A stretch of DNA of 64,000 nt from Lophium mytilinum (Eukaryota; Ascomycota; Dothideomycetes; Mytilinidiales; Mytilinidiaceae). Made by a program: the position numbers and the translations under genes. Below the pieces are notes generated by a model. It was not told the DNA's origin. It saw nothing but the letters and a program-made list of their open reading frames with translations, and ran no database searches. The DNA is taken from assembly GCA_010093605.1 (NCBI GenBank), contig MU004187.1:1496018-1560017 (forward strand). The letters are read 5' to 3'. Shown here piece after piece: positions 23,069-25,043 of this stretch; positions within the stretch are counted from its first letter, which is position 1, and each line of letters opens with the position of its first letter.

Positions 23069-25043
23069 ATGGAAAGCACCGTGCAGCTCCCGAAGATCGT
23101 CCTCTTTGGCGACTCGCTGACGGACTGGGGTTTCGATGAATACAATGGTGGTTTCGGATGGGCATTGGAAGAAGAATACAAGGACAAGGCAGAGGTGCTC
23201 AACGAAGGTATGCTACGCGATACTTCATGCGAGATAGCGATTTCAAACTTAATCGCTAACCCCCGACAACCAGGTCGCGCAGGGTAAGGAAACCATCCGC
23301 AGATCAGATAAACTCAGGGTCCTGATCTGATCTTCCACGAGCTCACCGATTGTGTACATGCAGGTGTGGCGCCCGTTCCTGCCTATTGGCTTACTCAGCA
23401 CGATACTGTATATCTATCCTTCCGTTGTAGCTAGCTTCCTCCCTCACTCATCAAACAATACAATACTTGACCATCACCGAGCCGCTGCTGAACGAACTCT
23501 ATCACAGCTGGCGCCCGACGAGAGGCAGCAGTCATAACAGAGCTCAGGAAGATGGAAGATAGCAGCAATTGGATGGATCCTGCTTCGCTGTCCGGGACAC
23601 AAGCAGTCATCGGTCGTCTAGGGCGGTCGAGATACCTGCCGTTAGGAACGTGCAGATGCGGTTGGAGTCCGGGACTTCGACTATGGGCCACACATTCACC
23701 GTCAGGGACACCGAACAACAGCATCAAGTCATGATTCTCCTTGTCAGGGACACATTGAATCAACATACCAGTTGGACTGGAACCCCTCTACGGCATACAC
23801 ATCTCACTCCCGAATACATCAACTCCAGCCATCACCGACATCCCCTTATGATGGCACCCCATAACAGCATACACATCCTCGACATCAGCGATCTAGAGGA
23901 GGATAACGGGCATCACATTCAACCTCATGCACGACAGTACTTGATTCTGGACATCCACAACAGGCACCTTTCAAAGCAGCATCTGTACACTATTCACAAA
24001 CCCACATTCGCTGTTCAGGAGGAAGGAGCATTTGACATGGAGACTTGGAAGGAGATTTGGGAGGACACTCATTCACATCTGTACTCCACTACCCTAGCAC
24101 CACATCTACCTTGGAGATACTCACTGGTTGCGAGCTGATGCTCTTAGTCTCAAAATGGGGGTGGCTGTGGCGCCCGTTCCTGCCTATTGGCTTACTCAGC
24201 ACGATACTGTATATCTATCCTTCCGTTGTAGCTAGCTTCCTCCCTCACTCATCAAACAATACAATACTTGACCATCACCGAGCCGCTGCTGAACGAACTC
24301 TATCACACAGGTATACATCGTCGATGCTTAGGCCCAACTTTGAGAAGATAATTTCGCGAGCGAAGAATCCGAACGCGCCCCCCACTCTCTTCTTCACCAT
24401 TTTTCTCGGAGCGAACGATGCTTGTCTACCCCCATGGTCCGGCCACGTCCCGCTGGTAGAGTATGAGGCGAATTTGAGGGCGTTCGTGGAGACGATCTTG
24501 TCCACGAAGGACTCCTTGGCAGACACCAAAATTGTGCTTATCACTCCACCTCCGATCAACATCCGCGACGCACTGCCAGATTACCCGGATGGGTCCGACA
24601 GCGAGGACTTGCAGGCGTCTCTGGAGGAGGAGAAAAAGTCAAGTGGCTACCGCACTTATATGAGCAAGAAACAGTACGCCGAAAAAGCCATGGAGATTGC
24701 GGAATCATACGGAGCAGTCACAGATAGAGTCATCGGTTTGAACCTCTGGAAAAGCCTAATAGACACCGCACTTGAACAGCAAGGCAGACTGCACGCTGAA
24801 GATGCTTACGATGAGAAAAAGCTGCCAGGATGCGGACTTCCTGGCGCCAAGGAATTCGAGGAGGGCTTCTTCACAGATGGGTTGCATTTCGGTCCCTCGG
24901 TGAGTTTGATGCTCTATTGAAATATATAGCGAGACGCTAACCACTACTCATGCGACGATCTTCAGACCTACAAGCTGCTTTCAGAGGATTTGATCACCGC
25001 CGTGCTTCAGAAGTGGCCGGAACTAGGGAGGTATAAGCTCTGA
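23069..25043 (+). CDS. IAH1: Isoamyl acetate-hydrolysing esterase-like GDSL hydrolase, intron invaded by an LTR element
   Basis: SGNH/GDSL esterase of the yeast Iah1 type, acting on short-chain acetate esters. Block I is IVLFGDSLTDWG (nucleophile Ser16), block III is LGANDA, and the C-terminal Asp-His pair is DGLHFGPS. Exons: 23069-23207, 23274-23283 (10 nt), 24311-24899, 24966-25043; phases agree and the product is 271 aa, near the family norm. The third exon resumes GRAG-YTSSMLRP exactly. Intron 2 (23284-24310) is 1,027 bp because a 943 bp LTR-type element sits in it. Without the element and one target copy the intron would be 80 bp. The acceptor used now lies in the duplicated CAGG after the right LTR; the original acceptor (CATGCAG at 23357-23363) remains before the left LTR. 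The coding exons look undamaged. Whether the long intron is removed efficiently is unknown. Confidence 0.88.
23365..23506. repeat. Left terminal repeat of the miniature LTR element
   Basis: 142 bp, TG...CA. Preceded by CAGG and followed by GC and the putative primer-binding site. Confidence 0.9.
24166..24307. repeat. Right terminal repeat of the miniature LTR element
   Basis: 142 bp, same sequence as the left repeat. It contains GCTGAAC (24288-24294), a good fungal branch-point match 17 nt before the acceptor AG that the flanking CAGG supplies. Confidence 0.9.

Follow-up and report, generated by a model that had tools for sequence, protein, structure and literature searches.

A miniature LTR retrotransposon on a splice acceptor of an IAH1-like esterase gene in Lophium mytilinum

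Within a 64,000-nt stretch of the Lophium mytilinum genome (the window; contig MU004187.1, positions 1,496,018 to 1,560,017), a miniature LTR retrotransposon lies exactly on the 3' end of the second intron of a predicted esterase gene, with four target bases, CAGG, duplicated on either side of it. Judging from its splice signals, we consider the chances about even that this is a leaky allele of reduced function, in which the old and new acceptors would compete and yield mostly an early-stop message together with a minor, correctly spliced fraction. Coordinates below are those of the window, and all features lie on its forward strand.

The esterase gene and the element within it

The gene comprises exon 1 (23069..23207), which contains the GDSL block (LFGDSLTDWGF); a microexon of only 10 nt (GTCGCGCAGG, 23274..23283), in which the GRAG motif is completed; exon 3 (24311..24899); and exon 4 (24966..25043, stop included). 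Intron 1 (23208..23273) reads GTATGC...GCTAAC...CCAG and intron 3 (24900..24965) reads GTGAGT...GCTAAC...TTCAG, while the 80 nt of the ancestral intron 2 (23284..23363; donor GTAAGG, acceptor CATGCAG) stand unbroken 5' of the element. Joined, the exons have neither stops nor frameshifts and give a protein of 271 aa that aligns end to end with its relatives and whose residues 1-246 match the Pfam domains Lipase_GDSL_2 (PF13472, E 6.7e-12) and Lipase_GDSL (PF00657, E 1e-10). By this GDSL domain and the full-length alignment, the predicted product is an IAH1-like SGNH esterase; "IAH1" is the name given in the preliminary description of this locus, and related records are named SGNH hydrolase or, in some metagenome records, isoamyl acetate esterase. 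The top database match is P0001 of Mytilinidion resinicola (about 85-86% identity over 100%); the Lophium mytilinum record P0002 is 100% identical over 82%, and identity to P0003, P0006, P0008 and P0010 is 57-60%. A second good copy of the esterase was not found in the host genome (43.2 Mb, 24 contigs), where the single weak match lay on C6 (E 5.8e-4), and our literature searches found nothing on the genome of Lophium mytilinum and transposable elements, or on its genome jointly with Mytilinidion resinicola.

The element is 943 bp long, with TG...CA ends, and consists of two LTRs of 142 bp (left, 23365..23506, from repeat comparison and family alignment; right, 24166..24307, from repeat comparison) that are 100% identical and enclose 659 bp. 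Its primer-binding site (TGGCGCCCGACGAGAGGC, 18 nt, 23509..23526) begins 2 nt inward of the left LTR and is complementary to the 15 encoded 3' nucleotides of the host tRNA-Lys(UUU) gene, located by ARAGORN in L026, plus the CCA that tRNAs receive post-transcriptionally. An exact search of the genome for that 15-nt tRNA end gave three matches, in the tRNA gene, in the element described here and at one site on C21. A purine-rich tract (AAAATGGGGGTGGC, 24152..24165) stands immediately 5' of the right LTR. Identical repeats combined with such primer-site complementarity are far beyond chance, and we regard the anatomy of the element at this locus as practically certain. With its short TG...CA repeats, primer-binding site, purine tract and target duplication, and with no recognised mobility proteins of its own, the element is by sequence a miniature LTR retrotransposon of the TRIM type, and we have filed it as such. 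A 9-mer, TGGCGCCCG, is common to the LTR start (23367-23375) and the primer-binding site (23509-23517), perhaps by chance, perhaps as a trace of the origin of the LTR end.

The internal region also contains an open frame of 191 codons (23563..24138) that is probably not a gene. Since only 1.1% of 2000 trials under a first-order random model reached that length, the frame is unusual and could be a remnant; we nevertheless judged a coding role unlikely: Pfam gave no match, none of 285 candidates is a homologue at E<=0.01, and the two relatives with internal sequence, on C19 and C21, lack a long frame (62 and 56 codons).

The two CAGG copies are at 23361..23364 and 24308..24311. The preliminary description had reported the 943-bp element with its identical 142-bp repeats, its insertion exactly on the acceptor with CAGG duplicated, the growth of the intron from 80 nt (23284-23363, without the element and one CAGG) to 1027 nt (23284-24310), and a reading frame that stays open when splicing goes to the new acceptor; our analysis bears out each of these observations. 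That description had also called the insertion recent: the repeats are indeed identical, but the age is weakly bounded: with 0 differences in 142 sites and the rate of 1.05e-9 substitutions/site/year stated in PMC5689174, the 95% upper bound comes to about 10 Myr.

A putative empty site in Mytilinidion resinicola

Where the joined Lophium protein reads KAEVLNEGRAGYTSSML, P0001 of Mytilinidion resinicola reads KAELTDCVCTNRYTSSML. The residues ELTDCV in this record correspond to the translation of Lophium 23339-23356 (GAGCTCACCGATTGTGTA), in the 3' part of intron 2, and run via CTNR into the YTSSM of exon 3; the E could just as well be the final residue of exon 1. From this protein record we infer that in Mytilinidion resinicola the homologous intron end adjoins exon 3 with no element between them, which would be an empty site in a relative, in keeping with the preliminary description, and that part of the intron has been translated in the gene model of that species, which is wrong at the microexon. 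By our own count, the stretch from ACC to the exon that P0001 implies is 4 nt longer than that of Lophium, so the intron ends of the two species are not identical. The residues LT in P0001 are compatible with YTNAC at the position of CTCAC, a branch-point candidate of the Lophium intron (see below).

Several other records of relatives, several of them from Dothideomycetes, are garbled or short at the microexon (e.g., P0004, P0005, P0013, P0015, P0024 and P0031), and trouble at this one spot is consistent with an old microexon of 10 nt that escapes gene finders. By a crude regular expression the motif is kept in 38 of the 120 proteins listed; many of the proteins that fail the expression are fragments, and a few are intact (e.g., P0032).

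Splice signals at the old and new acceptors

The preliminary description had overlooked that the left CAGG and the start of the LTR together form a donor-like CAG/GTGTGG (23361-23369), and thus that the element plus one CAGG is a potential intron of 947 nt (23364..24310), recognised here by string identity with the empty site. Because GT arises where the last G of the duplication meets the first T of the LTR, and AG/G comes from the second CAGG, this hypothetical intron is a seamless GT-AG unit, and deletion of 23364-24310 restores the exact ancestral string. Removal of the old intron as a first step would leave the junction CGCGCAGG/GTGTGG, an AG/GT-type recursive site at the boundary of the two introns.

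As a yardstick we used the A. nidulans consensus GTRWGY / RYTRAY / YAG (Kupfer's, as quoted in PMC12403724). Intron sets from the Lophium genome itself (~150 kb) were rejected for calibrating splice scores as too small and mixed: the search by coding score gave 0 candidates at first and later a noisy set of 25, and the search within open frames gave, against a reversed control, 6 vs 2 GTRNGT donors, 65 vs 26 with any GT and 37 vs 4 at the strictest score. Introns 1 and 3 have donors that agree with GTRWGY at 6/6 positions, and both the native intron-2 donor GTAAGG and the new GTGTGG agree at 5/6. Among Fusarium donors, a T at +4 (22%) and a G at +6 (4%) are uncommon, according to the donor data in PMC5677156; GTGTGG carries both and the native GTAAGG also carries the latter. 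In the same source, 2022 Fusarium introns span 42-529 nt, a set in which neither 947 nor 1027 nt would be typical.

The branch sites of introns 1 and 3 are both GCTAAC. The old intron-2 acceptor, which stands unreplaced 947 nt upstream of the new one with its AG intact, has the candidate CTCAC (23342..23346, with its A at 23345, 18 nt 5' of the exon), with CTGAT farther upstream, at 33 and 38 nt. No CTRAY occurs in the last 50 nt before the AG of the new acceptor, CACACAG/G, whose sole yTnAy, TTGAC, stands at 39 nt with another AG (24281-24282) in between. The preliminary description had credited the LTR end with a branch-point-like GCTGAAC; the heptamer is indeed at the stated place (24288-24294, 17 nt upstream of the new AG) yet departs from the fungal CTRAY, and GCTGAA, taken at 18 nt, is missing the final pyrimidine, so that the notion of a good branch point from the LTR end is not supported. 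By simple count of RYTRAY matches the old and new acceptors tie, the best candidates of each scoring 5/6, a score readily reached by chance (in 76% of windows of 50 nt and in 46% of the shorter window). The CTRAY/yTnAy core and its spacing would rank the old acceptor above the new one, a ranking that is not proof. CTCAC, too, is not the majority branch motif. Fusarium branch motifs are CTRAY in 91% and TTRAY in 4-5% of cases in the figures given by PMC5677156, and by analogy TTGAC, as a member of that accepted minor class, may make the new acceptor better than assumed.

An inverted pair, GATCAGAT ... ATCTGATC, was seen by eye at 23302-23332 in the ancestral intron 2, where it overlaps the CTGAT candidates; the pair could fold between the donor and the branch site.

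Predicted transcripts

As its branch-point region and its CAG have stayed side by side, the old 80-nt intron would be expected to remain a target of intron definition. A transcript that loses the old intron alone would continue into the LTR and meet a stop after 71 codons, and we would expect at least partial mis-splicing to this stop, an alternative that the preliminary description had itself raised; given the untouched old signal, a broken message appears at least as likely as clean removal of the element. The full protein could be reached by two routes that would yield an identical product: removal of a single 1027-nt intron up to the new CAG, or removal of the 947-nt intron from CAG/GTGTGG, before or after that of the old intron, the boundary then acting as a zero-length-exon AG/GT recursive site.

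The main model of the preliminary description was that the new acceptor has fully supplanted the old, giving a 1027-nt intron and normal expression. Joining 23283 to 24311 does preserve the frame and the full-length protein, the exons are free of stops and frameshifts, and the new site reads CAG/G; yet the old branch candidates and CAG are still intact upstream, no CTRAY lies within 50 nt of the new AG, a 1027-nt intron exceeds the 42-529 nt of the Fusarium set (PMC5677156) and intact exons carry little weight for a young insertion. We consider this model quite unlikely, and its account of a recreated splice site is partly supported by the sequence: a working new 3' splice site is unproven because the CTRAY core is lacking near the new AG and the old acceptor is intact.

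The opposite outcome would be a null allele, with use of the old acceptor and/or polyadenylation in the left LTR abolishing the protein and no correct splicing at all. Sense-oriented LTRs usually bear polyadenylation signals, the context of the old acceptor is intact and its use would lead to the stop after 71 aa, all of which speak for complete loss; against it, the seamless 947-nt GT-AG unit and the CAG acceptor are both present, and therefore some rescue is plausible. On balance a null allele seems rather unlikely. The same features would allow a more far-reaching reading, namely that an LTR retrotransposon has been caught becoming a seamless intron, its donor built from a target G and the T of the LTR, its acceptor from the duplicated CAG, and its removal accomplished as a second step at AG/GT. 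We think this unlikely; if true, any TG...CA element that inserts after AGG would share the property of seamless removal, and a general route to splice-neutral LTR insertion in fungi would follow.

The first exon of the deposited gene model, BU16DRAFT_349149 (P0002, 279 aa), falls by our mapping at 24138..24899: it begins at an ATG within the element and stays in frame across the right LTR and on into exon 3. The model contains neither the GDSL block nor the GRAG motif. We rejected it as evidence for or against any splicing outcome because the Mytilinidion model, from a gene with no element, is also wrong at the microexon. It could be taken to mean that a transcript begins inside the element and encodes a truncated protein, and the ATG at 24138 with its frame through the right LTR would agree with this, as would the LTR core (GTATATCTATCC...CTTCCTCCCTCACTCATCAA), the most conserved portion of the family alignment, which we take to resemble a TATA plus CT-rich promoter. 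The product would, however, be without the GDSL block and GRAG motif, and gene finders fail at this gene anyway, so that initiation from the LTR strikes us as very unlikely.

Relatives of the element

Among the best candidates scored, relatives of the element occur at at least 18 other places in the genome, mainly as single LTRs or pieces. With the element as query we found 18 places, the window included, and the LTRs of three relatives as queries added one more (C8:848536). Two diverged yet recognisable LTRs with internal sequence lie on C19 (L009), one LTR with internal sequence at C21:491502 (L010), and a match that covers the final portion of the internal region plus the right LTR at C21:430021 (L019); the remaining 15 places are single LTRs or pieces within the flanks that were fetched, the one on C8 being judged by eye. 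A test for target duplications took in ten single LTRs whose left end could be read (L011, L012, L014, L015, L016, L017, L018, L020, L021 and L024); L009, L010 and L019 were omitted for their internal sequence, L013, L022, L023 and L025 for a left end that was cut or unclear, and L066 was also omitted. Exact 4-bp duplications flank six of the ten (five by script and the sixth, L018, after its start was shifted by hand by one base), compared with 2/90 mismatched flank pairs; L015, L016, L021 and L024 have no target duplication, and 5-bp duplications were found at 0/10. The seven duplications are CAGG, GCAG, GCAG, ACGA, CCGC, ACGG and ACAC, and three of them contain CAG; seven are too few for a target preference to be claimed. 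The family gave no sign of intron creation in the six joined empty sites that we scanned for open frames, with L011 and L017 read in detail. At L017 the single LTR (2360-2507, with a GCAG duplication) ends 9 nt 5' of the ATG of a frame that resembles a short-chain dehydrogenase, and it may alter the 5' UTR or promoter of that frame.

A partner that might supply the missing enzymes was sought in several ways. Among the 19 places (best candidates scored), no two lie near enough to each other to form the LTRs of a longer element. The second exact match to the tRNA-Lys primer site (L028:1498-1515; C21:420626) has no direct repeat of at least 40 nt within the 9 kb fetched. Reverse transcriptase loci of the genome (RVT_1, 150/150 matching among the best 150 of 173 candidates scored; RVT_2, 33/33) are mostly stop-ridden, and none was tied to this LTR.

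The window also includes an AT-rich block at 34000-58000 (GC 25-31%) with a strong RIP-like dinucleotide bias (TpA/ApT 1.8; (CpA+TpG)/(ApC+GpT) 0.18) and with RVT_1/RVT_2 matches containing several stops at C7:1534385, 1546065 and 1550850; it probably consists of mutated retrotransposons. The miniature element is without such a bias (0.68 and 1.32 for the same two ratios).

Discussion

The leaky allele that we favor would have arisen when a non-autonomous mini LTR element, presumably primed by tRNA-Lys(UUU) and served in trans by the enzymes of another element, entered the last bases of intron 2 in sense orientation and duplicated CAGG. The locus offers a clean opportunity to ask, at one place in the genome, whether duplicated splice signals allow an LTR insertion at an acceptor to be tolerated; the old and new acceptors would compete within one transcript, and a sister genus supplies the inferred empty site.

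In its short LTRs, primer-binding site, purine tract, absence of coding capacity and total length below 1 kb, the element is like the TRIMs and SMARTs, and it differs from them in its 4-bp duplications (those of TRIMs are usually 5 bp), its low copy number and its exact position on a splice acceptor. SMARTs in grasses are described as often intronic or near genes (PMC3281118), and TRIMs are listed in fungi in the surveys of PMC5689174 and PMC10652580. Introners take splice sites from target duplications, and the ascomycete introners treated in the relevant part of PMC9860276 are reported there to lack such duplications. The Lophium element resembles introners in that its splice sites would combine duplication bases with element ends and its removal would restore the ancestral mRNA, at least on the level of sequence; introner families, however, create introns in many genes, whereas here an LTR element sits at one locus, at the end of an existing intron.

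Mobile elements within genes are also known to be removed by splicing: the retrotransposon 412 in Drosophila vermilion and Ds in maize are reportedly spliced from RNA, in work attributed to Fridell in 1990, Wessler in 1987 and Giroux in 1994. The difference is that removal was reportedly shown on RNA there and is predicted here. Recursive splice sites are AG/GT zero-length exons, and both they and stwintrons share with the Lophium locus the stepwise removal of two introns to leave one clean junction. In fungal stwintrons, as characterised in PMC12403724, introns are nested in such a way that a splice signal is divided, and no target duplication is seen; the Lophium introns would instead be adjacent, with a boundary made by a retrotransposon. 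Each part of the proposed arrangement has known parallels (TRIMs, introners and spliced-out elements), and the combination is attractive, yet it concerns a single locus; should splicing prove to excise the element as an intron, the locus would link introner biology to LTR retrotransposons in ascomycetes.
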